This document shows, one piece after another, positions 1 through 12,072 of a DNA stretch of 64,000 nt (its first letter is position 1; every line of letters begins with the position of its first letter). Origin of the DNA: Rhodobacteraceae bacterium F11138. Lineage in GTDB: Bacteria > Pseudomonadota > Alphaproteobacteria > Rhodobacterales > Rhodobacteraceae. The position numbers and the translations under genes were made by a program. The notes under the pieces are model-generated. The model was not told the DNA's origin. It saw only the letters and a list, made by a program, of their open reading frames with translations, and ran no database searches. Location of the stretch: NCBI GenBank assembly GCA_016521575.1, contig JAEKDP010000001.1:663894-727893 (forward strand). The letters run 5' to 3'.

Positions 1-1
1 G

Positions 2-49
2 GTCGGCGTGTCCGAACGGCCCCGCCCGGATGACATGGTGGTCCACTAA
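2..49 (+). CDS. possible C-terminal tail of an upstream protein (partial)
   Basis: In the frame starting at base 2 the window opens with codons reading VGVSERPRPDDMVVH followed by TAA. The 5' part lies outside the window, so the family cannot be recognised. A terminator hairpin lies about 115 bp downstream on the same strand, which fits a gene ending here, but 15 codons are weak support and this could be chance. Confidence 0.25.
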   Translation, partial: VGVSERPRPDDMVVH

Positions 50-78
50 AGCGTTCCGCCTTTGACCTGATCGATCTC

Positions 79-129
79 GTATCACCTATCGCGTTGAAGT
101 CGCGGATTTCAGGCAGCGAAAGGTGATAC
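79..129. repeat. 9-bp inverted repeat, possible RNA stem
   Basis: GTATCACCT at 79-87 is the exact reverse complement of AGGTGATAC at 121-129, with 33 bases between. It sits in a gene-free stretch that ends in a strong terminator (165-200). This could be the stem of a small transcript or an mRNA 3' end. No function is claimed. Confidence 0.35.
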
Positions 130-164
130 AGGTTCAAGGCGAATTGCCCTAGACCCGATTTCTT

Positions 165-200
165 GAACGCCCGCCCGATGAACGGCGGGCGTTCTTGTTT
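165..200 (+). terminator. rho-independent terminator
   Basis: An 11-bp perfect stem (GAACGCCCGCC at 165-175, GGCGGGCGTTC at 184-194) with an 8-base loop is followed by a T-rich stretch, TTGTTT. It is oriented for transcription on the plus strand and would end the gene upstream of the window or a small transcript beginning near base 50. Confidence 0.7.
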
Positions 201-273
201 GTCCCGACAACGGGTTTCACGCTAGTACGGGGACTTTGGGCAAAGCGCCTCGGCCCGCGAGGGATGAACAGGT

Positions 274-714
274 CTACTGTTCGATCGCCTCTTGCGCGAT
301 GGCGCTCAGCAGGGTCTGGACCTCTTGCATCGCGCCGTCCGGAAAATTCTGATGGCCGACAACGACCTGTCCTGGCGGGGTGACCAGTTCAGCCACGAAA
401 ATGCCATAGGGACAGAACGCGATATTCATCCGGTCGGCTTCCATCATTTTGCGCGATAGGCTGGCCGAGCAAAAATTGTAGACATCCGCGCGCGCGAAAA
501 GCTTTACGTCCGATCCGACATCGGCCCGGGTGCGGTCCAGCATCTCGCCCACATGGCTGACATGATCGACGACCAGACCCCGGTCCAGGATCGCGCTTTC
601 CAACCCGAAGATCACGTCGTCAAAAGATTGTTGCGTTTCATAACTGGTCATGTCCTGCGCTGCTGCCGACTGGATCGCGCAGGCCAGGCCGACTCCGACC
701 ACCCAAGATTTCAT
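274..714 (-). CDS. secreted DUF302-like protein
   Basis: A 146-residue protein. The start at 714 is chosen because AAAGGA lies just upstream and a clear signal peptide follows (MKSWVVGVGLACAIQSAAAQ, cleavage expected after AAA). A longer frame extends upstream but is not protein-like. The mature part resembles the DUF302 domain: an N-terminal SYETQQSFDDVIFGLESAI segment, two central cysteines (NFCSAS, AFCPYG) and a final FPDGAMQEVQTLL helix. The family has no settled biochemical role; a periplasmic location is inferred from the signal peptide. It is a single gene just outside the integrated element and probably ancestral chromosome. Confidence 0.75.
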   Translation of the reverse strand: MKSWVVGVGLACAIQSAAAQDMTSYETQQSFDDVIFGLESAILDRGLVVDHVSHVGEMLDRTRADVGSDVKLFARADVYNFCSASLSRKMMEADRMNIAFCPYGIFVAELVTPPGQVVVGHQNFPDGAMQEVQTLLSAIAQEAIEQ

Positions 715-1039
715 GTCTGCGTTCCTTTGTGTTCCTCGACTCGAATGTCTGTGCCCGTATGACCGCAGGCTCAAGTGGCTGGTTTGGCAAAACCCGCGTC
801 TCTGCAACCTGCGACAACTCAAATACAGACTATCATGTTTGGCGGGCGTGATGTCCACAATGTGACGATTGCGGCCGGGTTGGCATGGTTTGGCCATTCC
901 GCTCAGCGTCGGCATATCTGCACCGGGGTCATCAGCCAATCGGACCAAGACAGGGCAGACGAACCCATGACCCGGGGACCGCTACATCGGAACCGTTCCA
1001 AAGCCGGTTGTCAGGCTATCCGTTCGCTTTTGATGAATA
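715..1039. other. gene-free stretch between the DUF302 gene and the att site
   Basis: About 325 bases without a convincing gene on either strand. Open frames here lack ribosome binding sites and protein-like composition. The part next to 714 presumably holds the promoter of the DUF302 gene. Nothing else is recognised before the tRNA-Pro fragment begins at 1040. Confidence 0.5.
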
Positions 1040-1089
1040 TGGTCGGAGTGGCGAGATTCGAACTCACGACCCCTGCCTCCCGAAGACAG
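1040..1089 (-). repeat. attachment site, distal copy (tRNA-Pro 3' fragment)
   Basis: These 50 bases are identical to 9646-9695, the 3' end of the tRNA-Pro gene from the anticodon loop to the encoded CCA. The 5' half of the tRNA is absent here, so this is not a functional tRNA but the displaced end left by integration. It marks the left border of the element, 91 bp from the end of the integrase gene. Confidence 0.95.
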
Positions 1090-1166
1090 ATCAAGCAATG
1101 ATATTCTCTCTTTGATCATGGTTTACACCTATTTTGTAGCGTCCCGTACGACATTGTTTCACATTC

Positions 1167-1190
1167 AAACTGTGTGGCCTCACAGCTTCC
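1167..1190. repeat. 24-bp repeat near left end, candidate integrase arm site
   Basis: The 24 bases match 9576-9599 at 23 positions. The core CTGTGYGGCCTCACAG is itself a dyad. This copy overlaps the last codons of the integrase gene and lies 78 bp inside the left att repeat; its partner lies 47 bp inside the right one. Paired inward repeats close to both attachment cores are what integrase or excisionase arm-binding sites look like. That role is inference. Confidence 0.5.
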
Positions 1191-2277
1191 TACCTCCACG
1201 TTCCATTGCCTTGACAGTACTGTCTTGATGGTCGGGGTGATGGTGGGCATAGACGCGATGCATGGTCTCGATGCTGACACCGAAGTAACCAGCAGTTTCC
1301 CAGATGTCCGCCCCGGCTTGCATCGCCCATGTGATTGCTGTGTGGCGTAGCGTGTGAGGCGTGACCCCCGTTCCAGTCAGCCCAGATTCTGCCAAGGCTG
1401 TGCCCCAAGCCGTCTTAATCGACCCAACGCCCGCCCCCTTGTATTCAACGACCCACCGACCGTGACTTTGTTCCCAGCAGCGCAGATGCGCGGCCAACTG
1501 ACGGGGCAGGCGGATCGCTGGGCGCTTTTTCTTGGTGTCGGCTTCCCCCAACCCACGGCGATACATTGTGCCGCGTTCGGTATCGACCCAACCGCCCGAT
1601 GTGTTTGGCGTGAAACGCAATCGCAGAATGGCTGTCTTCCGAGTTCCGGTATACAGACCGACGAGAATGAACTTCGCCAGATGCTTGGACTCTGGATTGC
1701 GCCAAGCAGACCAAAGTAACCGTGCTGCTTCACTCCTGGTTAACCAGCGGTCTTTCGGCTCTGTCTTTGCAGGCAAATGAACCTTTGGTGGGTTCACAAC
1801 ATAGCCTTCATCGCGGCAGTAGGTGATTGCGGCCGCCAACGTACCCAACTCCTTGCGGATCGTGCTGGGTGCAACGGGCGTAGTCTCCAAGACTTCTTTG
1901 GTTTTCGAATCCTGCTTCACCACCTTGCGCCTTGATCGACCGTAAGCCCTGCAGGTTTCGCGAGTGATGGTCGAAAGCGGCCGCTCTCCCCAGAACGGAA
2001 CCAGCGCTTCGATCGCGTAGCCGATTCTGGCGGGATCTTTTACGTTTGGGGCGTGTTCATTGGCGTAGGTCACCAACGCGGCGGCTACGGTCATCTCCGA
2101 GGCTGTAGCGGGACCACGGGGGCGGTCCCTTTCTGCAAGGTAGAGTTTGAGCTGCTTTTCAGCCTCTTTGCTGTCTCGAGTGCCTGTTGAGCGTTCCCCG
2201 CGACCGGAGTCGCGGATAATGTAGATGCCGGTGTCCTTGCGACGGTAGAGGCGGGGGCCCTTGGCGTACTGCGGCAT
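1180..2277 (-). CDS. int: tyrosine-family site-specific integrase
   Basis: A 365-residue phage-type tyrosine recombinase. The N-terminal part (residues 1-60) has the KGPRLYRRKDTGIYIIRD arm-binding-like start common to Rhodobacterales prophage integrases. A SAM-like core-binding region follows (about 62-160), then the catalytic domain. Visible catalytic residues are R213 (GLYTGTRKTA), H308 and R311 (HTLRHTA), and Y343 (HRVYAHH) as the likely nucleophile. It should catalyse recombination between the phage attachment site and the 3' end of tRNA-Pro(CGG). It ends 91 bp from the left att copy, the usual place for an integrase. Its first 187 bases overlap the upstream HTH gene in another frame. All catalytic positions are present, so it looks functional. 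Confidence 0.95.
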   Translation of the reverse strand: MPQYAKGPRLYRRKDTGIYIIRDSGRGERSTGTRDSKEAEKQLKLYLAERDRPRGPATASEMTVAAALVTYANEHAPNVKDPARIGYAIEALVPFWGERPLSTITRETCRAYGRSRRKVVKQDSKTKEVLETTPVAPSTIRKELGTLAAAITYCRDEGYVVNPPKVHLPAKTEPKDRWLTRSEAARLLWSAWRNPESKHLAKFILVGLYTGTRKTAILRLRFTPNTSGGWVDTERGTMYRRGLGEADTKKKRPAIRLPRQLAAHLRCWEQSHGRWVVEYKGAGVGSIKTAWGTALAESGLTGTGVTPHTLRHTAITWAMQAGADIWETAGYFGVSIETMHRVYAHHHPDHQDSTVKAMERGGRKL

Positions 2278-2435
2278 GCGTTCAAAATCTCCTCAAAGTC
2301 ATCTGGCGAAATTCGCTTCCGGTTGCCGAACCGTATGAATAGTCCAAGTTCTTCTGCGACGCGCTCGACAACGGCTTTCGGTGCTCCAAGTATTTTGGCC
2401 GCTTCTTTTGTCGTTACAGTGAGAACTTGTGACAT
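2091..2435 (-). CDS. HTH protein, excisionase-like
   Basis: A 114-residue protein whose first 50 residues form a helix-turn-helix of the excisionase/AlpA sort (VTTKEAAKILGAPKAVVERV, then RFGNRKRISPDDFEEIL). The rest is Ala/Pro/Thr/Ser-rich and overlaps the integrase start by 187 bp in another frame, so the tail is under double constraint and may be dispensable. Its position directly upstream of int suggests a role as directionality factor or integrase regulator. A plain transcription regulator is the alternative. The function rests on the fold and neighbourhood only. Confidence 0.65.
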   Translation of the reverse strand: MSQVLTVTTKEAAKILGAPKAVVERVAEELGLFIRFGNRKRISPDDFEEILNACRSTPRAPASTVARTPASTLSATPVAGNAQQALETAKRLKSSSNSTLQKGTAPVVPLQPRR

Positions 2436-2446
2436 GGTTTTTCTGC

Positions 2447-2710
2447 CTATTTCTCGATTTCGTTTTGATTGCGGCCCAGGTGGCCAGGGCCATCAACTCT
2501 CGGCCCCGGCTCCAGCCCCATCGAAATTTTGGTAACGCACTTCCTGCCAGCGCGCAGGACAAGGATCTTGCCCCCCGGAGCGAATTGGCTGGGCCGATAC
2601 AAGCGATTTTCAAAAACCACTTCCGTGTCGGTTTCCTCGACGATCTCGACCAGCTCGAAAAGCTCGAGATCGCAGTAGGGGTCGGGCAGTTTGATAGTGG
2701 TGTGAAACAT
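2447..2710 (-). CDS. hypothetical phage-element protein
   Basis: An 87-residue protein starting MFHTTIKLPDPYCDLELFELVEIVEE. The start at 2710 is chosen over one at 2752 because it has AAGGG about 7 bases upstream and lies just after the stop of the preceding gene (2721). It is acidic in the first half with a basic middle (VLRAGRKCVTKI). I do not recognise the family. It lies in a minus-strand run with the genes on either side (gaps of about 10 bp), so it is probably co-transcribed with the HTH gene and integrase. Confidence 0.6.
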   Translation of the reverse strand: MFHTTIKLPDPYCDLELFELVEIVEETDTEVVFENRLYRPSQFAPGGKILVLRAGRKCVTKISMGLEPGPRVDGPGHLGRNQNEIEK

Positions 2711-2720
2711 CTCGAAGCCC

Positions 2721-3437
2721 TTAGGTATCCGAGGCATCCAGATCCGCCCCAATCGGCGCGGCTTTTTTGGCCTTCAAGATGTCGCGGCCCCGCAGGACAT
2801 ACCCTTTCGCCAAGGCCCGTTCTTTGGCATATCGATAAGCAAACAACAGGTTCACAACCGAGAAGTGCGCCACTCCAGTCTTGACCGCGTTGAACCTCAC
2901 GTCCCGATTGGAGATACCTTCCGAGAAAAAGGCTTCAATCGTGCTGTTGAAACGACAACCGGCTTCGGTCGGGTCACAGCCGTAGCTGATTTCGCTATAC
3001 CCAAACCCATGCAAGTCATCGTGCGTGCCTGCGATTTTGAAAACAATATTCATATCGTTGACGCGTTTCCCTGCGTCCAGGCGATCAAAGAAGGCGCCAA
3101 TGTAACTCCATTGTCTCTGCACCAGCGGGGACGCGACAATGGCGGTTAAACCGGCACCCTGCGCCATTTCCAAGACCGTGCCAGCCACAACGTGCTGCCC
3201 GTCATAGCGCCTCTGCACGTTGGTTTCGAATCCATCATCGTCCCACGGCACAACACCACGTGCGAGATCTCCACGAACCGACGCTTTTGTGCGTCCCAAG
3301 AGGATGGCCAGTTCACCGGTGCGGATAGTCTTCTTAAAGTCCACTGCATCACCTATGTGCATAATCGATTTATCACATACTGTTTTCTTCAGTCCGGACA
3401 AGTCAATTACTTTTTTGATATCCCCATCGGATTTCAA
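2721..3437 (-). CDS. hypothetical protein with possible HTH segment
   Basis: A 238-residue protein. Residues 38-60 (GELAILLGRTKASVRGDLARG) look like a winged-helix/MerR-type DNA-reading segment. The rest (VAGTVLEMAQGAGLTAIVASPLVQRQWSYIGAFFDRL and onward) matches no family I know. The start is uncertain: ATG at 3437 is used, but ATG at 3362 is possible and neither has a strong ribosome binding site. It lies between the regulatory genes and the integrase operon, so an element-specific regulator is a fair guess, no more. Confidence 0.6.
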   Translation of the reverse strand: MKSDGDIKKVIDLSGLKKTVCDKSIMHIGDAVDFKKTIRTGELAILLGRTKASVRGDLARGVVPWDDDGFETNVQRRYDGQHVVAGTVLEMAQGAGLTAIVASPLVQRQWSYIGAFFDRLDAGKRVNDMNIVFKIAGTHDDLHGFGYSEISYGCDPTEAGCRFNSTIEAFFSEGISNRDVRFNAVKTGVAHFSVVNLLFAYRYAKERALAKGYVLRGRDILKAKKAAPIGADLDASDT

Positions 3438-3487
3438 TCAGCTTATTTGCTTGACTGCTTCGAGGACTCTGCGGCTTGCGTGGAAAT

Positions 3488-3649
3488 TCACCCGCCATCG
3501 ATGGCGTTCGGCGGGCCGGACTGACCCGAAGCGCCCCGCCACTTCCCCCGCATGAACAAGGGTTCCCGGCGATCAATGGCAAGCCAAGGCGCGCCCAGGT
3601 AGTTCATGTTCAGACCACAAAGCCGGGCGACTATTCTAGCTATCCGCAT
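3488..3649 (-). CDS. possible small overlapping protein
   Basis: A 53-codon frame starting MRIARIVARLCGLNMNYLG that overlaps the end of the upstream gene by 14 bp and fills an otherwise empty 200-bp gap. A GGGGA stretch lies upstream of the start at a slightly long distance. The C-terminus (RGKWRGASGQSGPPNAIDGG) is glycine-rich. There is no family match; it may be a non-coding spacer. Confidence 0.3.
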   Translation of the reverse strand: MRIARIVARLCGLNMNYLGAPWLAIDRREPLFMRGKWRGASGQSGPPNAIDGG

Positions 3650-3953
3650 CAGGATTTTTCCCCATTTTGGCGTAAAATCCAATCCGGTGCCTGCAATGAA
3701 GATCGTCCAATTCCCCGTATATCTCGTCGCAAAGCCGGTGGATAACCTCGAACATTCCTTCCCAGCCAACTGCGCCCAAATCTACACTCATATCGGAATC
3801 CGCAGCGCAGCGGCCCACGCGGGCAAGGGCCTTGATTTGGACGATTTTTTCAAACGCATCATCAACCCTACCTGAGGTATACATGCTTCGGTATTGGGGA
3901 ATCCTGGCAATCGGCAAACCTGTATCGGTCGCGCAAACGCGGTCTTTGGTCAT
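3636..3953 (-). CDS. hypothetical phage-element protein
   Basis: A 105-residue protein with a good ribosome binding site (AAAGGA, 6 bases before the ATG at 3953). The sequence is protein-like throughout (for example FEKIVQIKALARVGRCAADSD and GMFEVIHRLCDEIYGELDDL) and predicted mainly helical, but I recognise no family. It starts 15 bp after the stop of the small ribbon-helix-helix gene, so the two are likely co-transcribed from the 4139-4176 promoter region. Confidence 0.65.
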   Translation of the reverse strand: MTKDRVCATDTGLPIARIPQYRSMYTSGRVDDAFEKIVQIKALARVGRCAADSDMSVDLGAVGWEGMFEVIHRLCDEIYGELDDLHCRHRIGFYAKMGKNPDADS

Positions 3954-3968
3954 TGGATTTCCTTTCGG

Positions 3969-4127
3969 TTAGGGGTTGGTTTCGTGTTCTGCGTTGCGGG
4001 CCATGCGTTCCCGAATGGCGCGGATCACTTCGGAGTTCTGAGAAGATGCATTTTCCTCAGATTGAGCAGCAAGCCACACTTTGAGGTCTCGGGGCAATCT
4101 GAGAAGCAATTGCGGTCGGTCAGCCAT
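3969..4127 (-). CDS. Arc-type ribbon-helix-helix repressor (52 aa)
   Basis: A 52-residue protein reading MADRPQLLLRLPRDLKVWLA and ending NAEHETNP. The strand segment RPQLLLRLP followed by two helices (RDLKVWLAAQSEEN and NSEVIRAIRERMAR) is the Arc/MetJ ribbon-helix-helix pattern, close in size to P22 Arc (53 residues). GGGAG sits 6 bases before the ATG. It is divergent from a second RHH gene at 4227 across a 32-bp dyad, and is probably the first gene of the leftward control operon. The likely role is dimeric or tetrameric binding to the dyad to control both directions. Confidence 0.8.
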   Translation of the reverse strand: MADRPQLLLRLPRDLKVWLAAQSEENASSQNSEVIRAIRERMARNAEHETNP

Positions 4128-4138
4128 TCGAGTCTCCC

Positions 4139-4209
4139 ATCATATCCATTTGCGATGTATCGCATATGGATATCATTGCATCAACCAAAAAATGATCGCA
4201 CATGGCGAT
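4139..4209. promoter_or_regulatory. divergent promoter with 32-bp dyad operator
   Basis: Bases 4142-4173 form a near-perfect dyad: ATATCCAT/ATGGATAT outer arms (4142-4149, 4166-4173) and TGCGAT/ATCGCA inner arms (4151-4156, 4159-4164), with only two unpaired positions per half-turn set. TATGAT (minus, 4144-4139) and TATCAT (plus, 4171-4176) lie symmetrically on its two edges and resemble -10 boxes of the divergent RHH genes. A second ATCGCA (4195-4200) faces an imperfect copy, GGCGAT (4204-4209). The layout suggests one operator that silences both promoters. The binding protein is presumably one or both RHH products. Confidence 0.7.
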
Positions 4210-4226
4210 AGAAACGCGAGGGGCCC

Positions 4227-4538
4227 ATGAGCGATACGTCTAGACGGAAACAGGATCAGTTCATTGTTCGCCTGCCAGACGGCATGCGCGACCGCATAAA
4301 ATTGGCGGCAGAGGGCAATAATCGAAGCATGAACGCCGAAATAGTCGCAACGCTGGAGCGGGCATACCCGCCGCCCAAGCCCAAGAGCAGCTACGAAGAA
4401 ATCATCGAGGCCGTGAAGGAAGACGGCGAAAGCAGAATCATCAAAGAAGAGGGAACCGAGGTGCATTTCTCCAGGCTAGAAGACGGTCGCGTCATTCTCG
4501 ATATTGTTGACACCCGTCCGGTTCGAGACGTCGACTAG
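4227..4538 (+). CDS. Arc-like RHH protein, probable antitoxin or regulator
   Basis: A 103-residue protein. Residues 9-47 (DQFIVRLPDGMRDRIKLAAE, then SMNAEIVATLERAY) are an Arc-like ribbon-helix-helix DNA-binding domain. The acidic C-terminal half (EEIIEAVKEDGESRI and onward) has the look of a partner-binding tail. The PemK-like toxin gene starts 14 bp downstream, the usual antitoxin-toxin order. It reads away from the small RHH gene across the shared dyad. It may be antitoxin, immunity-type repressor or both; the sequence does not decide. Confidence 0.75.
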   Translation: MSDTSRRKQDQFIVRLPDGMRDRIKLAAEGNNRSMNAEIVATLERAYPPPKPKSSYEEIIEAVKEDGESRIIKEEGTEVHFSRLEDGRVILDIVDTRPVRDVD

Positions 4539-4552
4539 CGGGGTCGCGCCGA

Positions 4553-4957
4553 ATGCCAATCAAGTTTGATGTGAAGCCTCGAACCGTCTTGCTGTGCGAC
4601 TACAGCAAGGGCGGGTTCCGCGCGCCGGAGATGGTGAAGCGCCGCCCGGTCATCGCTATCTCGCCGCGCCTGCGACACAGAACCGGGCTGGTCACTGTTG
4701 TTCCACTGAGTACGACCAAGCCCGAGCGGGTGGCTGATCATCACTGCAAAGTGACATTTCAAAAACCATTGCCGCGCTTCCCTGTCCAAGAATGTTGGGT
4801 CAAGGCTGACATGATCGCCACAGTTTCCTTTGGACGCCTAGACCTTTTCAGCACAGATAGGGACCAGAACGGGAAGCGGAAGTATCTGACTCCGCTTATT
4901 TCAGAGGAAGAGTTCGAACATGTGAAGGCATGTATTCGCGTTTCTCTTGGATTTTGA
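4553..4957 (+). CDS. PemK/MazF-like growth inhibitor (toxin)
   Basis: A 134-residue protein of the PemK/MazF-like type. It opens with the strand-rich KPRTVLLCDYSKGGFRAPEMVK segment, followed by the family hallmark RRPVIAISPRL, a VTVVPLSTTKP strand, and the ECWVKADMIATVSFGRLD region. Members are small toxins, usually sequence-specific mRNA endonucleases neutralised by the product of the preceding gene. The RHH gene ends 14 bp upstream, so the pair forms a type II toxin-antitoxin operon that may stabilise the element. The family match is fair rather than strong; RNase activity is inferred. Confidence 0.7.
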   Translation: MPIKFDVKPRTVLLCDYSKGGFRAPEMVKRRPVIAISPRLRHRTGLVTVVPLSTTKPERVADHHCKVTFQKPLPRFPVQECWVKADMIATVSFGRLDLFSTDRDQNGKRKYLTPLISEEEFEHVKACIRVSLGF

Positions 4958-5074
4958 AAACTGCGTCACAATCGCCCGGAGCGATCCATTAATTGACGAT
5001 TAGGGCCTGTGTCCCTATATTGCCTGTGTCAGCTCGCGCTCTTGCGTTGAGCCTCAAGACCACTTTTTGTGGCG

Positions 5075-5115
5075 ACCCCGCTATGGCGATTCCAAGCCCG
5101 GCGGGGTTTTTCTTT
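5075..5115 (+). terminator. rho-independent terminator after the toxin gene
   Basis: ACCCCGC (5075-5081) pairs with GCGGGGT (5101-5107), followed by a T-rich tract TTTTCTTT. It is on the plus strand about 120 bp beyond the toxin stop and just before the decayed tail gene that comes from the other direction. It likely ends the rightward RHH-toxin transcript. Confidence 0.6.
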
Positions 5116-5135
5116 GTCTTGGGGCTCGGTGAAAC

Positions 5136-6330
5136 CTAGTCCGCCGATATCAACATATACCCTTCGTGGTGCGTGTCGTTCTGCAGATCGACCAGCATCC
5201 GCTTGCAGATGAAATCGCCTTCGACCCTGACCCGTCGCTCGTGTTGCTTTGGCTGCCAGCCTTGAGCGCTCCGACGAGGGCAAGTCCCTTGGTTGTGACC
5301 GCCGAAGCCGCGCCCAGATTGGCCGGAAACGGCAGCTTCAACGCTTCTGCCGCGCCTTGGTGCATGCTGATCAACGCCTGCGCTGCACCAAACACCTGCG
5401 CTCCTTTCAAGACCTTTTCGTTGAACGCCCCAAGCGCGCCTCCAGAATGTCCGACCCGGCCGCCAGGGTAGGCGCCAGCTTTGCCGCGCCTTCTAGATTT
5501 GCAATCTTGGTGCGCTCGTCCGCGTAATCTTGCTCGATCCAGGTCAGGCGCTTCTGAAAATCGTCGCTGGCGGCAAGGATCTCGTCGTGCGTTTCGACTA
5601 TGCCCGACGGCAACAGCGGTTCGGTTGCTGTAGCTCTGCATCATTCGCAGGCAGGTCGCTCCGCAATGTGCGCGCCCAATCCGGCCATTGTGACGGACCA
5701 TCCCCAAAGATCGATGGAGCCGTGAACCCGCCTTCCTGGGCGGCTCGCGCGATCTTGTTGTAGTAGCTTTCGAAGGAACGGCCAGCCTGTTCAAGTTGGC
5801 TGCCGCCAACGAGCTCACGCTCTCCGCAGCGTTCGAGGCAACATTGATCAGTCCAGTGAGAGCCTTTATCGCGTATTCGGACACGAATTCGGCCAATGTC
5901 CGCATACGGTCTTCTACATCGACCAGTGCACCAATCAATTCGCCCTTCGTTCATGCCTTTCAGAGTGTCGGCCACCTTGGTCTGCGACACCCAACGTATC
6001 GGCCGTGAATGCCATGCGCTGACACCGCTCGACACCCATCCCCGACATCTTGACAGGTTGTTGAGTTCCCGTGCCGCTCGGGCAGGACCGGTCAAAGCGT
6101 TGACTAGCCTAGTCTTGCAGCTCCGGCGGCAAGACCGATGGCTGACAGGCCCAAGGCGGACTTCTTGATGCCTGTGGCGTTCAAGGATCTGGAAAAGCCT
6201 TTTGCCGCGCGCGAGGTGTCTTTCAGGTCCCGGCGAAACGGTCGATCATCAGCGGTTATTATCACGGCGACTCTTGTCGCTTGCCAATTGTTCTGTGCCC
6301 TCTGTTCAATTGCGTTCTTTATTTGAGCGC
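5136..6330 (-). pseudogene. decayed tail tape-measure gene
   Basis: Read on the minus strand, phage tape-measure-like stretches appear in succession but in changing frames. They include VAVIITADDR, KKSALGLSAIGLAAGAARLV, ALTGLINVASNAAESVSSLA, SYYNKIARAAQEGGFTAPS, ILAASDDFQKRLTWIEQDY and GAAQALISMHQGAAEALKLP. The final frame ends in HHEGYMLISAD. At least four frame changes separate them (near 5440, 5610, 5800 and 5938). The Ala-rich helical, short form fits the tape-measure proteins of small siphophages, which set tail length. With this many breaks no full protein can be made. The flanking capsid gene is open, so decay is uneven. Confidence 0.75.
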
Positions 6331-6349
6331 CGCGCCTGAATGAAGAGTG

Positions 6350-6448
6350 TCAGGCCGCGCTCATCTCGGGGTTTTCCCACTCACCGAGTAACGGGGGCGA
6401 TTTCTCTTGAGACGACAAAAGAGACTCGGCCCGCCCTGCCGGAACCCG
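6350..6448 (-). pseudogene. possible 3' remnant of a phage gene
   Basis: Directly after the capsid stop a minus-strand frame runs without a start codon and ends ...SPPLLGEWENPEMSAA then TGA at 6350. The composition is protein-like. It may be the last 30 or so codons of a gene that once lay between capsid and tape measure, where head-tail connector and tail genes are expected. If so, an internal deletion ended here. Confidence 0.3.
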
Positions 6449-6450
6449 GC

Positions 6451-8451
6451 TTACTGACCGGGATTGCGATACCACCCTCTGTGATCAACAAATCCAGCGC
6501 CAAAATCCAACCTGCACTTGAACTGCATCACGTCCATTTCGAACCCTTCTTGTTCGAAGACTTCGGGACCTGATTGCCCGTTCAGGTAGGCATACTGCAA
6601 CGTGTCCGGTGAACCCGGTGCCGCGGCAAGATACCAAGCGGAACTGTCTTCGAGGAAAGAATCCAATATCGGTTCGAGATTCCCGGAGAATGGGTTCGCT
6701 TTTGCTTCATCGGCCGCTGCGATCACGGCCAACGACTGTTCTGCCGACGTCTGCATTTCTGGCGGAACCAGAACATAGCGCGGTGTTGCGCGAATGATCT
6801 CCCCATTCATGCCACGCTGGCGCTGCATCGCCGTACGAGCTGAGGAAATTGTCGAAATTGACGGCGCCGCCCCGCTCGAAGCAAGATTGTTGTGGTCATC
6901 ATGGAACATCGCCTTCCCATCGTCCATGGTGGGGCCCGCGCCTGAGTTGGCGGCCAGCAGCGCTGCCAGCAGCTTACCTTCAGTCTGAGCCGCACCTTCG
7001 CCCAAGGTTCTTGCCATGTTGTCGAAAGCGCCGAGATCGTCGTTGATCATCGTTTGCCGGGTCAGACCCAAGATCTTGCCATAGGTCTTTACGGCATAGG
7101 TTTCAGAACCTTCTTCGATGGTCCCGTATTTGTACTCTGCCCCTTCGCGAACTTCTTCGAGATCCGGCCCGATGCTCAACCGCGCAGCGTGCAGCGCCCG
7201 AAAATCGCTGGCTTCAACCTCTCTGCCAAGCATCTTGATGCCGGATGTCGCAGTTTCGTAATGATCCAGCATTGAGCGGTTCATAACGTTGCCCAAAATT
7301 CGGGGAAATTCGCTTGTGGTCATTGCCATCTCGACCTTGGCTGCCTTGCCCCCGAACAACGGTGTCTTGCGGCCATGCGCCTGCAAGACAACTCCGGCCA
7401 GGTCAACCATCGTCGCCCCGGCGAATTCGCGGCCCATGGTCGGTTCGTGGGATTTCTTCACACGGGCCATAAGGCCATCTGCCAGCTTTTCGACCAGCCC
7501 GTCCCCGTGATCGTAGGATTGCCCAACTGCGTTGCGGCCCAGGCTTTGAATGTGCCCACCATTGTTGCGGATATCGCCGCCGTCATTTTCCGCATCGGCT
7601 TTGGCATCCAGAACCCATTCCCGCGCCTGGGCAACGGTCACGCCTTCGTCGATCCAACCAGCCAGTCGATCTTGGGCAACAAGACTTGCATTGCCTTCAC
7701 GATTGGCCAGGGCCATCAATCCGCTGACTCGCTTCCGTTCTTCTGCGATCAGGTCATCACCCGGCGCGCGCGAGGTGATCGGGGCAAGGCTTTTCGGACC
7801 CTGCGATCGTTCGGCTTTCACCGGCTTGTTTTTGACAGTCATGGAGTTTCCTTTCGATTTTCGGTCCCAGCCCTTCGCATGTGCGAGCTGCACCAGGTGA
7901 ACGGGGGCATTCCTGAACGCCGCCGCATAGTTTGCCGGAAACGGTTCCGCTTCCGTGGTATTTTCAAAGATCAGATCGGCAAGGCCGGCCTCGACGGCAT
8001 CTGAAGGAGAAAACCACGTTTCCGCGCCCATCCACTTCAGGACGGCTTTCAGGTTTTGCCCAGATCTCGCGGCGTAAACTTCACCGTAAGTTGCCCTCAG
8101 CTTTTCCAGTTCGGTCGCCAACCTGGTGTGTTCTTCGGCAGTCCCGCGATATTCGACCCCATCCAAGGCCGGATCATGGAGCATCAGCATCGAACCGGGT
8201 GCCATCTCAACCAGATCTGCGGCCATAATCAGCAGCGAGGCGGAGCTTGCCGCCAGTCCTTGCACCCTCACTGTCACATTCCCGGAATACTCGAGAAATT
8301 CTGAATGGATCGCGACCCCATCCATGGCGTAGCCGCCCGGTGAATTCACCTTGACCAGAACGTCTCCACCATCAGCCTTGGCCAACTGGTTTCGCACGTC
8401 CGCAGGATCGAAGTCCCATCCGACAGCCCCCTCTAGCACGATTTCAAACAT
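6451..8451 (-). CDS. ClpP-like prohead protease / major capsid protein fusion
   Basis: A 666-residue two-domain phage head protein. Residues 1-200 are a ClpP/S14-type head maturation protease with VNSPGGYAMDG, the Ser-nucleophile motif GLAASSAS (S69) and H92 in MLHDPALDG. The third ClpP catalytic position reads ETW, as is usual in phage members. After a linker (200-330, with a charged helix around 230-290) residues 330-666 resemble the Mu gpT/HK97-like major capsid group. The protease half should cut the fusion and trim capsid subunits during assembly. AAGGGG precedes the ATG. The frame is fully open beside a decayed tail gene, which is notable. Such protease-capsid fusions are known in phages. 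Confidence 0.85.
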   Translation of the reverse strand: MFEIVLEGAVGWDFDPADVRNQLAKADGGDVLVKVNSPGGYAMDGVAIHSEFLEYSGNVTVRVQGLAASSASLLIMAADLVEMAPGSMLMLHDPALDGVEYRGTAEEHTRLATELEKLRATYGEVYAARSGQNLKAVLKWMGAETWFSPSDAVEAGLADLIFENTTEAEPFPANYAAAFRNAPVHLVQLAHAKGWDRKSKGNSMTVKNKPVKAERSQGPKSLAPITSRAPGDDLIAEERKRVSGLMALANREGNASLVAQDRLAGWIDEGVTVAQAREWVLDAKADAENDGGDIRNNGGHIQSLGRNAVGQSYDHGDGLVEKLADGLMARVKKSHEPTMGREFAGATMVDLAGVVLQAHGRKTPLFGGKAAKVEMAMTTSEFPRILGNVMNRSMLDHYETATSGIKMLGREVEASDFRALHAARLSIGPDLEEVREGAEYKYGTIEEGSETYAVKTYGKILGLTRQTMINDDLGAFDNMARTLGEGAAQTEGKLLAALLAANSGAGPTMDDGKAMFHDDHNNLASSGAAPSISTISSARTAMQRQRGMNGEIIRATPRYVLVPPEMQTSAEQSLAVIAAADEAKANPFSGNLEPILDSFLEDSSAWYLAAAPGSPDTLQYAYLNGQSGPEVFEQEGFEMDVMQFKCRLDFGAGFVDHRGWYRNPGQ

Positions 8452-8519
8452 ACATATTCCCCTTTAACCCTTTGAAATTGCTCACCCAACAACAACAACC
8501 TAATCTGCAAGAGGCTTGG

Positions 8520-8533
8520 GGTATTAAAATACC
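8520..8533. promoter_or_regulatory. 14-bp palindrome upstream of the capsid gene
   Basis: GGTATT-AA-AATACC is a perfect 14-bp palindrome 69 bp before the capsid start, in the short gap (8452-8625) between the capsid and initiator-like genes. It may be an operator for the structural genes. No recognition protein can be named. Confidence 0.4.
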
Positions 8534-8625
8534 ACACGAAACGGGGCGCGAATTACCCCTGTACGGTGGATGCCCAGGAAGGACCCACAGCCCATTTTCT
8601 CCTCTGCAGTTGGATCTTTGGTGGG

Positions 8626-9510
8626 TCATTGAAGCCCCGCCGCCCTCAGGTCGGCGACCGTAACCATGCCCATTTCGATCATGACTTTCGCAAGCTTCGA
8701 AGTTATGGCCGACTGTGGAATATAGGCGCGGCCAAGGATCTTCTCGGCATACATCCGGGCGGTACCCTCAATCCCGGCGGTGTTCGAGGTGACCGAAGCC
8801 GTGCTGGGTTCCTCGAAATCCTCCCACCTACGATCAACCAACCAGTTGTCGGAGTAGGCGATGTATTGCGGCGAGTTGCTCTTGTTCTCGCCCGCGTACC
8901 TCATCGCAGACTGGATAATCCAACAGGGATCAACACCCGCCCTCAATGCATCAGTGAATATCTGTCGCGTCTTGTCGCGAAACCTAGGTCTCGGGTGTTT
9001 CTCCCAGAACTCTTCAAAGCAATCTGGGATGTGTGTGTTGGCCTCGGCAACACATGGTTCCTGAACGGTTCCTGAACGGTTTGGGTGAATCTCCTGCACC
9101 CCATGGGGTGAATCTCCTGCACCCGTGGGGTGAATCTCCTGCACCGGTGAATCTCCTGCACCCGTCGACTTCTGGGGCAGTTGTGAGGGACTCGCGCTGA
9201 TCTGGTCCCGGTCTTTTCTGGTCGACGGCAGCGCCCTAACCGCTTCCAAATTGATTGCATACTCGAGGGTGTAGCCGTTGGCGCAGCTGCGCTTGCCGAC
9301 CTCGAAAATTAGGTTGGCGGCTTGCAAATCATCAAAGCAGTTTTGAACCGTCCGCTTGCTCAGTTCGAGGTCAGCGGCGATATGGCCTTTACTTGTCCAG
9401 CATCCGGAACCGTCTTCACTGGCGCAATCCGCCAGATACATGAAGACCGACTTTCGCGTCGGAGAACCGACACTGCGCTTCTTCACTAGGGCAATGACTT
9501 CGAAGCTCAC
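8626..9510 (-). CDS. helix-turn-helix protein, lambda O-like replication initiator candidate
   Basis: A 294-residue protein. Residues 1-100 form a winged HTH of the phage replication type (SVFMYLADCASEDGSGCWTS, then SKRTVQNCFDDLQAANLIFE). A low-complexity linker follows (about 116-155), encoded by four DNA iterons. The C-terminal half contains FEEFWEKHPRPRFRDKTRQI and an IAYSDNWLVDRRWEDFEE segment typical of phage replication/helicase-loader-like proteins. The order, DNA-binding head then iteron-encoded linker then partner-binding tail, parallels lambda O, whose gene contains the origin. It lies next to the tRNA, facing the capsid gene. A plain HTH regulator is possible. Confidence 0.7.
   Translation of the reverse strand: MSFEVIALVKKRSVGSPTRKSVFMYLADCASEDGSGCWTSKGHIAADLELSKRTVQNCFDDLQAANLIFEVGKRSCANGYTLEYAINLEAVRALPSTRKDRDQISASPSQLPQKSTGAGDSPVQEIHPTGAGDSPHGVQEIHPNRSGTVQEPCVAEANTHIPDCFEEFWEKHPRPRFRDKTRQIFTDALRAGVDPCWIIQSAMRYAGENKSNSPQYIAYSDNWLVDRRWEDFEEPSTASVTSNTAGIEGTARMYAEKILGRAYIPQSAITSKLAKVMIEMGMVTVADLRAAGLQ
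9084..9162. repeat. four 17-bp iterons inside the initiator-like gene
   Basis: GGTGAATCTCCTGCACC occurs exactly four times at 9084-9100, 9107-9123, 9129-9145 and 9146-9162. Spacings are 23, 22 and 17 bp, so successive copies are translated in different frames (GAGDSP versus VQEIHP). Each copy has GGTG/CACC ends in inverted orientation. A pair of shorter repeats (GGTTCCTGAAC) lies next to them at about 9057-9078. Identity kept across frames means the DNA, not the peptide, is conserved. A phage replication origin with iterons in the initiator gene is the likely reading. Confidence 0.75.
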
Positions 9511-9575
9511 AACAACACCCCCTTCGGCCTGTGAAAGGGCAGGTGAAACGGTCGAATATTCTGTGGATTTGCCGG

Positions 9576-9599
9576 AAACTGTGCGGCCTCACAGCTTCC
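9576..9599. repeat. 24-bp repeat near right end, candidate integrase arm site
   Basis: Partner of the repeat at 1167-1190 (23 of 24 bases identical) with dyad core CTGTGCGGCCTCACAG. It lies 47 bp inside the right att repeat, in the gap between the initiator-like gene and the tRNA. Arm-type binding by integrase or excisionase is inferred from position. Confidence 0.5.
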
Positions 9600-9645
9600 G
9601 CCAAATGGCAGAACCCATGTTGTTTGCACAAGTTCTTGAAAATAT

Positions 9646-9695
9646 TGGTCGGAGTGGCGAGATTCGAACTCACGACCCCTGCCTCCCGAAGACAG
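9646..9695 (-). repeat. attachment site, tRNA-proximal copy
   Basis: The 50-bp segment of tRNA-Pro from the anticodon loop to the CCA end is identical to 1040-1089. It marks the right border of the integrated element. Recombination between the two copies would release the circle and leave one intact tRNA. Confidence 0.95.
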
Positions 9696-9722
9696 TGCTC
9701 TACCAGGCTGAGCTACACTCCG
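9646..9722 (-). tRNA. tRNA-Pro(CGG)
   Basis: A 77-base minus-strand tRNA including an encoded CCA. The acceptor stem is CGGAGTG/CACTCCG, the D arm contains GCTCAGCCTGGTAGAGC, the anticodon loop is TTCGGGA (anticodon CGG, proline) and the T arm contains GGTTCGAATC-type sequence in its usual place. Its 3' 50 bases are duplicated at 1040-1089, so it served as integration target and was restored by the element. Confidence 0.97.
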
Positions 9723-9846
9723 ACCGTTGTGGGGGCGGATTACAGCTATGTTCGGGCTTTGGCAAGTCCAATCCACTACCCGTTCTGCTGTTGCCGGGGC
9801 CATCGTTCCGGGGCGGCCCCGAGCAATGGGCAGCAGAATGGAATTC

Positions 9847-9875
9847 GGCCCTGCACGCCAGGGACGTACAGGGCC
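9847..9875. other. GC-rich hairpin downstream of leuB
   Basis: GGCCCTG (9847-9853) pairs with CAGGGCC (9869-9875), followed on the plus strand by GGGGGTTTT. It lies 28 bp after the leuB stop. Leftward transcripts lack a T-run here, so for leuB it may stabilise the 3' end rather than terminate. Confidence 0.4.
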
Positions 9876-9902
9876 GGGGGTTTTGGTTGCAGCCGGTTCG
9901 GA

Positions 9903-11009
9903 TCAGATACTGTTGTCCAGCGCGGCCAGGATCGCGTCGCCCATTTCCGTGGTGGATACGGGCTGAACCCCTTCCTCGCCGATCAGATCGGCGGTGCGCA
10001 GACCGTCGGCCAGAACCTGTTCGACGGCCGCTTCCAGGCGGTCGGCTTCTTCCTTCTGATCGAAGGAATAGCGCAGCGCCATGGCAAAGCTGAGAATACA
10101 GGCGATTGGATTTGCCTTGCCCTGTCCGGCGATATCCGGCGCGCTGCCGTGGACCGGTTCATACAGGGCTTTGGGACGGCCATTGGCCATGGGCGCCCCC
10201 AGCGAGGCGGACGGCAGCATGCCAAGCGAACCCGTCAGCATCGCGGCCGCATCCGACAACAGATCGCCAAACAGGTTGTCGGTGACGATCACGTCAAACT
10301 GCTTGGGCCAGCGGCACAATTGCATGGCGCCCGCGTCGGCGTACATGTGCGACAGTTCCACATCGGGATAGTCCTCGTCATGGACCTTTTGCACGACTTC
10401 GCGCCACAGGATGCCGCTTTCCATCACGTTGGCCTTTTCCATGGAACAGACCTTGTTTCCGCGTTTGCGGGCCAGTTCAAAGGCGGACCGGGCAACGCGG
10501 TCGATTTCGCTTTCGGTATAGCGTTGGGTGTTGATGCCGACGCGTTCGTTGCCTTCCTTGATGATGCCGCGCGGTTCGCCGAAATAGATGCCGCTGGTCA
10601 ATTCGCGCACGATCATGATGTCCAGCCCGGCAACAACGTCCCGCTTGAGGCTGCTGAAATCGGCCAGCGCGTCAAAACACTGTGCCGGGCGCAGGTTGGA
10701 AAACAGGTCCATTTCCTTGCGCAGACGCAGCAGGCCGCGTTCCGGTTTGACGCTGAAATCCAGATCGTCGTATTTCGGCCCACCCACGGCGCCCAGCAGC
10801 ACGGCGTCGACCTCCTGGGCCTTGGCCATCGTGTCGTCATGCAGGGGGGTGCCATGTGCATCATAGGCCGCGCCGCCCACCAGGTCTTCGGAGACGTCAA
10901 AGGCCAGGTTTCGTTTGTCGCCGTACCAACCGATGATACGTTTGACTTGGGCCATGACTTCGGGGCCGATGCCGTCACCGGCAAGGATGAGAAGCGAGGG
11001 ATTGGACAT
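9903..11009 (-). CDS. leuB: 3-isopropylmalate dehydrogenase
   Basis: A 368-residue enzyme of leucine biosynthesis that oxidises and decarboxylates 3-isopropylmalate to 2-oxoisocaproate with NAD+. The start at 11009 gives the family N-terminus [18 protein letters not shown]. Visible family signatures are [25 protein letters not shown], the Tyr-containing [14 protein letters not shown], the metal-binding [21 protein letters not shown] and the NAD-binding [19 protein letters not shown]. The length is normal. A gene-free 53 bp separates it from the LysR regulator upstream. It lies in the same orientation as leuD and leuC but several kilobases away from them. Confidence 0.97.
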
Positions 11010-11062
11010 GCGGACTCTCCTGAATTTTGTTGCCTTGCCCCTACCGCGCAGGGCGGCAAGCG

Positions 11063-11971
11063 TCAATGCGTGCTGCCGACGGCGTGGTGGGCCAGCCCGC
11101 TTGACAGCATATCCCAGACGCGGCGCAGGCGCGGCGTCTGGCGCATCATCGGATGGGCCGCCAGCCAGACCGGAAGGGGTGGGATGGAAACGCCAAGTTT
11201 CAGTTCCTGCACCAGCGGATCGGCCCGCCCCACATTGACCTGAGAGAACCCGATGCCGCATCCGGCGCGCAGCAAATCCCAATAGGCGGCCTGATCGTCG
11301 CAGCGCACGGCGAAATGGTCCCGCGTCAATGGCCACCCCAGGGCCTGGGTGGTGCGCAGAATCAGGTCGTTGCGATCATATCCGATCAGGTCATGTTCCC
11401 GCAGATCCCGCGCCGATTTGGGGCGCCCCGCGCGTTCCAGATAGCTGTGCGCGGCAAAGATGCCCAGTTCCAGATCCGTGATATGTTGCGTGACGATATC
11501 CAGTTGGGTCGGACGATACATCCGCACTGCGATATCGGCTTCGCGGAACAGCAGGTTCTCGGTGGTGTCCGACGGGATCAGATCCAGCTGGATCCGAGGT
11601 TCCGCCGCGCGGATGCGGGCCAGGATCGGCGGCAGAAGGTGATGGCTGGCAAAAACGCTTGCGGTGATGCGGACCGTCCCCTGCAGGCGTTGTGATTGTC
11701 CCGCTGCCGTCAGCGACAGGGCGTGCATCTCGGCCTGCATCCGTTGCGCTATGGGCAACAATGCGGATCCGGTCTTGCTGGGGCGCAGGCCGCGCGGGTG
11801 GCGCAGGAACAGGTCAGCCCCCAGATGTTTCTCCAGGGTCCGGATCTGACGGCCCAGCGTGGGCTGGCTGCGCCCCAGCTTGCGGGCGGCAGCGGACAAC
11901 GAGCCGGTTTCGGCAACGGCCAGAAAGCTTTGTATCAGCGACCAATCCGTATGAGGCGGGGCATCATCCAT
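11063..11971 (-). CDS. LysR-family transcriptional regulator
   Basis: A 302-residue LysR regulator. The N-terminal winged HTH covers residues 8-67 ([40 protein letters not shown]). The effector-binding domain starts near 92 ([20 protein letters not shown]). It is of the MetR/CrgA-like sort that often controls an adjacent divergent oxidoreductase. The divergent epimerase gene begins 101 bp away, so autoregulation and control of that gene are likely. The effector is unknown. Confidence 0.92.
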
Positions 11972-12072
11972 TCATTCGTGAATATCATACCTGCATACTT
12001 CGGCAATATCCCATGACAATATGAATGGATAACCTGTGCCCGTTCAACAGATGCGTTCCAAAGGAGTTTGAA
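11971..12072. promoter_or_regulatory. divergent LysR/epimerase intergenic region
   Basis: A 100-bp AT-rich gap between two divergent genes. It contains a small dyad TTCA-TTCG-TGAA (11971-11982) at the LysR start, and AAAGGAG ahead of the epimerase start. A LysR operator is expected here, but I see no clear T-N11-A palindrome that I would defend. Confidence 0.4.

Follow-up and report, generated by a model that had tools for sequence, protein, structure and literature searches.

Why should a coding sequence carry the same 17 bp four times over, when the copies are not all read in the same frame? The question is raised by the window (the whole 64-kb stretch of DNA that was analysed), in which a motif scan found four exact copies of GGTGAATCTCCTGCACC at 9084-9162, with spacings of 23, 22 and 17 on the plus strand. 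The scan and its coordinates bear out an earlier note, made from the sequence alone, which had described these repeats and their spacings. With up to three mismatches allowed, 0.25 matches are expected by chance per 64 kb, and four were reached in none of 100 shuffles. The analysis points to an answer already familiar from phage lambda: the repeats are very probably (a probability of roughly 0.85, judged from sequence comparison) the iterons of a lambda-type replication origin located where an O-like initiator gene encodes its linker.

The repeats and the gene that contains them

The gene lies on the minus strand and, in its orientation, iteron 1, GGTGCAGGAGATTCACC, occupies 9146-9162 in codon phase 0; iteron 2 (9129-9145, offset 17, phase 2) abuts it, and iterons 3 (9107-9123, offset 39, phase 0) and 4 (9084-9100, offset 62, phase 2) follow. 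The phases 0, 2, 0, 2 confirm that the repeats are translated alternately in two frames, as had been noticed, and generate the peptide GAGDSP-VQEIHP-GAGDSP-VQEIHP at residues 117-143. On the coding strand, the word GGTGCA-GGAGA-TTCACC is an imperfect 6-5-6 inverted repeat, or dyad, with the half-site GGTGMA. A role as a DNA hairpin was rejected, the single-strand folding of the array having a z of -1.12 that 26 of 200 shuffles equalled, and an Rfam search of 1-12000 returned tRNA only.

The O-like replication initiator gene (8626-9510, minus strand) encodes 294 aa from a GTG start with no internal stop. Its product matches Pfam HTH_36 (PF13730) with 33.2 bits (cut-off 25; E 4.5e-08) and, among the PHROGs, for which no cut-off is given, PHROG_270 (E 7.2e-24) and PHROG_391 (E 5.4e-16); the PHROG_391 and PHROG_8540 matches are annotated 'replication initiation O-like'. 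The lambda O family PF04492 (Phage_rep_O) gave no match at E up to 0.1, whereas lambda O itself matches it at 5.7e-36. On profile evidence, the window protein belongs to the HTH_36/PHROG_270 initiators, outside Pfam's Phage_rep_O family.

The AlphaFold model of the protein (mean pLDDT 74, pTM 0.41) comprises three parts, all encoded on the minus strand. An N-terminal winged-helix domain (residues 1-92; 9235-9510), predicted with pLDDT 89-98 as 10-residue block means over residues 1-90, includes the recognition helix (residues 52-64; 9319-9357), in which the codon of Arg53 lies at 9352-9354. The linker that follows (residues 103-159; 9034-9204) is predicted to be disordered, with pLDDT below 50 at residues 116-142 and 144-159, and leads to a C-terminal helical domain (residues 160-294; 8629-9033), which also matches PHROG_10293 and 35955 and whose helices are modelled with moderate confidence. 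All four dyads are located within the gene, in the linker part between the DNA-binding and C-terminal domains, and the iteron-coded residues 117-143 fall in the predicted disordered linker. A PDB sequence search with the single protein returned nothing at E up to 1, a PDB profile search just two unrelated chains (E 0.06-0.08), and Foldseek against the PDB nothing at E up to 0.001 (best 2.8e-3). Foldseek against viral models gave 115 matches at E up to 0.001; the best 50 of these are mostly unnamed or 'helix-turn-helix' phage proteins, and one is a 'putative replication protein O'. A single-protein search of the genome and viral contigs confirmed no relative.

In phage lambda, the textbook case, the origin is placed inside its own initiator gene, and lambda O brings in the helicase via P and DnaB. 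The four annotated lambda iterons lie inside O with spacings of 20, 24 and 23 and, from the annotated coordinates, in codon phases 0, 2, 2 and 1 of O, so that frame independence is itself a lambda trait. When the 6-5-6 scan was applied to lambda, three of the four iterons passed as TCCCTC-type dyads (12, 10 and 11 of 12) and the fourth remained below threshold. The parallel with lambda O drawn in the earlier note, that of an origin inside the initiator gene, holds in these respects: both systems have four iterons in the initiator gene, a 6-5-6 core (in lambda, in three of them) and mixed frames. In number and size, the window repeats also fit the lambda type, which has about four inverted repeats of 17-19 bp. 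They differ in the word (TCCCTC in lambda, GGTGMA in the window), in the spacings (20, 24, 23 against 17, 22, 23) and in the protein family (PF04492 against HTH_36); no P gene was found in the window element. Lambda also has an AT-rich stretch just downstream of its iterons (flank GC 0.23 vs 0.48), whereas the AT flank of the window is weak. According to PMC7466680, every lambdoid iteron has inverted-repeat structure and O is dimeric.

In a lambda-type origin of this kind, a dimer of the N-terminal domain would sit on each dyad, with Arg53 reading the G-rich half-site. Four such dimers would wrap the array, the AT-rich DNA nearby would melt, and the C-terminal domain, the putative replisome-recruiting part by its likeness to lambda O, would recruit the helicase as lambda O does. 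The disordered linker would tolerate any peptide dictated by the iteron DNA, and the repeats could thus occupy a coding region in more than one frame.

The integrated element, the flank of the array and the replication partners

The initiator gene is part of an 8.6-kb element integrated in the window between perfect 50-bp direct repeats. The left attachment repeat is found at 1040-1089 and the right one at 9646-9695, within a tRNA-Pro(cgg) gene (9646-9722, minus strand) that the initiator gene adjoins. Profile matches on the minus strand identify the tyrosine integrase of the element (1180-2277), a small HTH_17 gene (2091-2435), weak similarities to tail tape-measure proteins (5150-5938) and, adjoining the initiator, a fusion gene of a ClpP-like prohead protease and a major capsid protein (6451-8451). 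Neither a portal nor a terminase was recognised among the 14 element ORFs scanned, and the same 14 ORFs (1040-9695) included no helicase or loader. Judged by its gene content, the element is a very small prophage remnant or satellite. As the ORFs scanned include neither a helicase nor a loader gene, the copy in the window is likely to be inactive or to rely on another element. The word 'origin' therefore states a type and not a present activity. Gram-negative PICIs are similar in being small and integrated and in having their own initiator and iterons, although, according to PMC6092414, a PICI origin follows the 3′ end of its initiator gene and its iterons flank an AT-rich stretch on either side, whereas all four iterons of the window are within the gene.

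The stretch directly past the last iteron (9053-9083, minus strand) contains two tandem copies of CCGTTCAGGAA; it sits where many relatives have an AT-richer stretch of the CAAACCATCC type, and the AT-rich dip of the relatives is weak here. In the window copy, the first 40 bp past the array have a GC of 0.53 vs 0.56 for the gene, which is almost no dip, and the lowest 30-bp GC (0.40) is reached 58 bp away. The 40 bp past the last iteron are, on average, poorer in GC by 0.13 in a set of 76 same-family genes; for 104 viral genes the difference is 0.10, and there the 40 bp upstream of the array dip equally (-0.10), so the effect is not one-sided. The DnaA box TTWTMCACA, a mark of the origins used by iteron plasmid Rep proteins, is absent from both strands of the element and its sequence occurs in two of 88 homologous genes (L162 and L185), where perfect boxes, TGTGGATAA, in 3 and 2 copies, respectively, flank the in-gene dyads on both sides. 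As for replication partners, genes for a C5 methylase and a DnaB-type helicase lie downstream in L054, the nearest viral relative among the matches listed. Two of five annotated phages, PhiR49_2 and U2, have loader (DnaC-like) and helicase genes after the initiator; in the other three (SfV, Galaxy and AsXd-1), neither is annotated within the stretch examined.

The weak AT flank and the lack of a helicase or loader in the remnant were counted against function in this copy. Both would fit a formerly functional lambda-type origin that is now decaying in a dead prophage, a possibility that is compatible with the main reading and that we consider somewhat favoured: integrase, capsid fusion and tail fragments are present, and helicase, portal and terminase are missing from the 14 ORFs scanned. 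The open frame of the initiator, the identity of the iterons and the perfect 50-bp attachment repeats speak against decay, which implies that it is recent or that the site is still used.

A different explanation would deny the repeats any role in replication. The helix-turn-helix protein could repress or time its own transcription from within the gene, with the repeats as operator sites, and a winged-helix protein with dyads in its own gene fits this idea too, as do the best 50 of the 1309 Foldseek matches in the PDB, which are largely generic winged-helix proteins (transcription regulators and general transcription factors). Autoregulation is nevertheless unlikely. The sites lie about 350 bp inside the gene, away from its start, the family profiles are those of replication initiators, and the fixed-grid arrays with their AT-rich flank in relatives resemble origins and not operators. 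The loader and helicase genes that come after the initiator in two of the five annotated phages also argue against it.

Frames, words and spacing among the relatives

Viral sequences provided one source of evidence on whether the DNA or the peptide is the conserved entity. The exact 17-mer was found in at least 120 viral stretches, a set selected by the word itself, and variants of the form RGTGMA-N5-TKCACY cluster round most of these copies. The window protein was matched in phmmer by 109 of the 121 ORFs that cover motif clusters in this set (window included). Three of the 12 non-matching ORFs (L007, L074 and L082) are shorter and still contain multi-site arrays; the remaining nine, with a lone copy of the 17-mer and no protein match, look like chance occurrences. 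Exact 17-mers in the 108 viral O-like genes lie mostly in phase 0, with 56 copies in forward and 56 in reverse orientation, together with seven in phase 2 and one in phase 1, and more than one phase is used by 17 of these genes. The second-best viral relative by phmmer among the matches listed (L011) has copies at 0, 17, 40 and 63 that use three phases; the one at 17 contains a single mismatch.

The preponderance of phase 0 speaks for a repeated peptide, that is, for a GAGDSP/VQEIHP linker selected at the protein level: 420 of the 447 dyad sites in the 121 motif-selected ORFs (window included) keep that phase, against 26 in phase 2 and 1 in phase 1. Selection on the peptide is, however, very improbable, since the window has identical DNA read in two frames, copies in reverse orientation spell another peptide (GESPAP), disorder is predicted for the linker, and arrays are mostly lost in synonymous shuffles that keep the peptide. 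This reading was rejected on these grounds.

Direct evidence that the DNA is constrained came from fourfold third bases, compared at shared residues in 1609 gene pairs of 35-75% identity, which are not independent of each other. Inside the iterons at offsets 0, 39 and 62, 9602 of 12440 such bases (77%) were identical, vs 67752 of 140136 (48%) outside, and identity was higher inside the iterons in 1519 of the 1541 pairs with at least 4 inside sites. The proposal in the earlier note that the DNA itself is under selection is supported by this conservation, by the use of both orientations and of phases 0, 2 and 1, and by the protein-preserving shuffles.

An order-wide protein search retrieved homologues in 77 of 292 genomes, all of the same family, at 88 places; L123 is the window and L176 another copy from its genome. 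In four (L124-L127), which share 42-50% identity with the window protein across the matched region, GGTGCA-type dyads are retained with spacings of 17, 22 and 23. The other homologues are mostly without the window word and have their own dyads in the same linker, built on words such as GGGTCC-N5-GGACCC, GGGGCC, GGGTTC, GGGGTC and CGTGAA. A de novo scan for 6-5-6 dyads, blind to the word and with the grid 0, 17, 39, 62 taken from the window, found at least two dyads on the grid in 79 of the 88 genes and at least three in 48, counts that are not independent given that the homologues are related to each other. When codons were swapped among identical amino acids, 26 of 176 shuffles had at least two grid dyads and 2 of 176 at least three; 74 of the 88 genes had a dyad score above those of both their own shuffles. 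The GGGTTC-word genes mostly have two dyads (score 6), inside the range of some shuffles, and two of the 79 genes (L206 and L210) looked chance-like and were removed as chance dyads from the flank-GC and subsequent comparisons. No grid pair was detected in nine homologues (L133, L189, L200, L203, L204, L205, L207, L208 and L209), of which L200 and L207 are short ORFs, L203 matches in the C-terminal half only and L204 has three off-grid dyads. The loss of the repeats from relatives that keep the protein, the outcome that had been named as telling against an origin, is thus not the rule, since other words mostly occupy the same grid (79/88).

The positions of the grid are not equally strict. Counting only the genes already on the grid, mean agreement with a gene's own word was 10.6, 9.8 and 11.4 of 12 at offsets 0, 39 and 62, over a background of 3.4, and the second site is degenerate, with its best agreement (7.5 of 12) at offset 16 in an average dominated by GGGNYC genes. 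The arm gap of 5 was also taken from the window, and alternative gaps were scored too. Many GGGTCC and GGGTTC genes score better with a gap of 3 (up to 13 vs 10), which leaves the centre unchanged and shifts the arms inward in the palindromes listed, and a gap of 6 scores 10 vs 9 in most GGGGCC genes; 6-5-6 is not proved as the exact site shape in GGGNYC genes.

Beyond the order, a class-wide search with PHROG_270 gave matches in 17 of 385 genomes. Among the 17 loci, two (L222 and L232) have new arrays, one (L221) is the window and one (L224) has a doubtful short repeat; in 11 of the 17 no array rose above shuffles, some of the ORFs chosen being short or possibly in the wrong frame, and at L231 and L233 there was no tblastn match. 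Locus L232, from another family of the same class, has five GGCGCA-type dyads at ORF offsets 330-429 in alternating codon phases, and its word is a GC-shifted version of the window word. Dyads were also found in three further phages (L214, L215 and L216), an array count that leaves out L213, phage Galaxy.

Tandem duplication without selection, or recent amplification of a short mobile repeat in the window, hardly deserves credence: the four identical copies are what recent duplication or gene conversion would give, but relatives at 40-50% protein identity have diverged dyads at the same offsets, different words occupy the same grid, and of the 12 places in the 4.48-Mb genome that fit the loose pattern GGTGNANNNNNTNCACC, four are the window array and the other 8 are all single sites, so this reading was rejected on the conservation of the grid.

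Word and recognition helix

The exchange of words on a conserved grid is accompanied by changes in the recognition helix. Winged-helix domains of 187 aligned proteins, reduced to 45 at 90% identity, were compared after gappy rows had been dropped and four viral sequences (V_L028 and V_L006/29/30) left out of the viral GGTGMA group. Arg occupies position 53 in all 11 window-clade and all 19 viral GGTGMA representatives. In the 12 GGGNYC representatives the position is taken by Ser, Thr or Ala (Arg in 0 of 12), and every one of them has Lys-Arg at residues 56-57 (12/12); no window-clade or viral GGTGMA representative has Lys at residue 56. These are raw counts of related representatives, the viral ones selected by the word, and the word is weak in L138, a member of the window clade whose score of 6 is below that of one codon shuffle, as well as in L189 and L208. 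Taken across the entire domain, the window clade resembles the GGGNYC group (43% identity) more than the viral GGTGMA group (34%), and overall relatedness therefore does not explain the agreement at Arg53. A wider set of 195 proteins, reduced to 37 representatives at 80% identity and including lambda and other words, gave Arg53 in 25 of 25 cases with NGNGNA words and in 0 of 12 with others. Most relatives keep the site layout, and the site sequence often changes along with the DNA-reading helix.

Like the window, SfV orf39 and the initiators of Escherichia phage PhiR49_2, Aeromonas phage AsXd-1 and Pseudomonas phage U2 have GGTGMA or AGTGMA dyads in the gene; SfV orf39, the only one of the four tested for profiles, shares HTH_36 and PHROG_270 with the window protein. 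Arg53 is present in SfV and U2 as in the window, and the helix start SKR is found also in PhiR49_2 and AsXd-1. All four differ from the window in that their sites are in-frame, and their initiators share at most 29% identity with the window protein. No description of their iterons was found in searches of the open-access literature.

An initiator whose DNA-binding domain varies together with its origin has a precedent in the PLE of Vibrio cholerae, where, according to PMC8263062, the RepA_N domain and an intergenic origin co-vary, only cognate pairs replicate and the iterons are semi-palindromic. The PLE origin differs in being intergenic, in its RepA_N protein and in its three repeats of about 30 bp (PMC8263062), whereas here the origin is in the gene and the spacing is nearly fixed. 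The in-gene lambda-type origin and, from PMC8263062, initiator-origin co-switching are already known; what is new is a grid of fixed spacing on which the word changes in step with the recognition helix, in prophages and in mobilizable elements. In the searches made of the open-access literature, no description was found of the GGTGMA word family, of a fixed grid with exchangeable words or of the association with residue 53. A full-text search of the open-access literature for word variants returned only an unrelated West Nile amplicon paper, and GGTGMA-type words are not described in passages from PMC7466680, PMC2647930, PMC6092414, PMC7157519, PMC3349717 and PMC8263062.

The mobilizable elements came to light through the second copy in the same genome (L176), where an O-like initiator is followed by NikA/MobC-like and relaxase genes (L176:3001-5869) and the in-gene iterons are of the GGGGCC type, at offsets 0, 39 and 62. 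MobC homologues were found in the flanks of 33 of the 88 loci, including 29 of the 32 GGGGCC-word genes, so mobilizable integrative elements, too, have the in-gene design. This suggests that the lambda-like arrangement is common among the HTH_36 initiators of prophages and mobilizable elements. A broader proposal, for which we see the chances as evenly balanced, is that the HTH_36-type in-gene origin is a fixed dyad grid (0, 16/17, 39, 62 in one bacterial family) with an exchangeable word, common to prophages and relaxase-bearing integrative elements. Word and helix would co-switch (Arg53 with NGNGNA; Ser, Thr or Ala plus Lys56-Arg57 with GGGNYC), and spacing and C-terminal domain would stay constant. 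If this is true, site and reader, being in one gene, would travel as one cassette and form a natural recognition code for replication incompatibility.

One 17-bp word recurs in at least 100 viral O-like genes and other words occupy nearly the same grid elsewhere. With almost two hundred natural pairs of initiator and site available, each contained in a single gene, the evolution of origin specificity can be tested directly by binding assays. For annotation, the warning is that a linker like GAGDSPVQEIHP could represent origin DNA and not a protein repeat. A last observation concerns L176, in which an ORF close to the mobilizable element (L176:1871-2773) encodes an Arm-DNA-binding segment together with an rve integrase core and looks like a transposase gene inserted into, or fused with, a tyrosine integrase.
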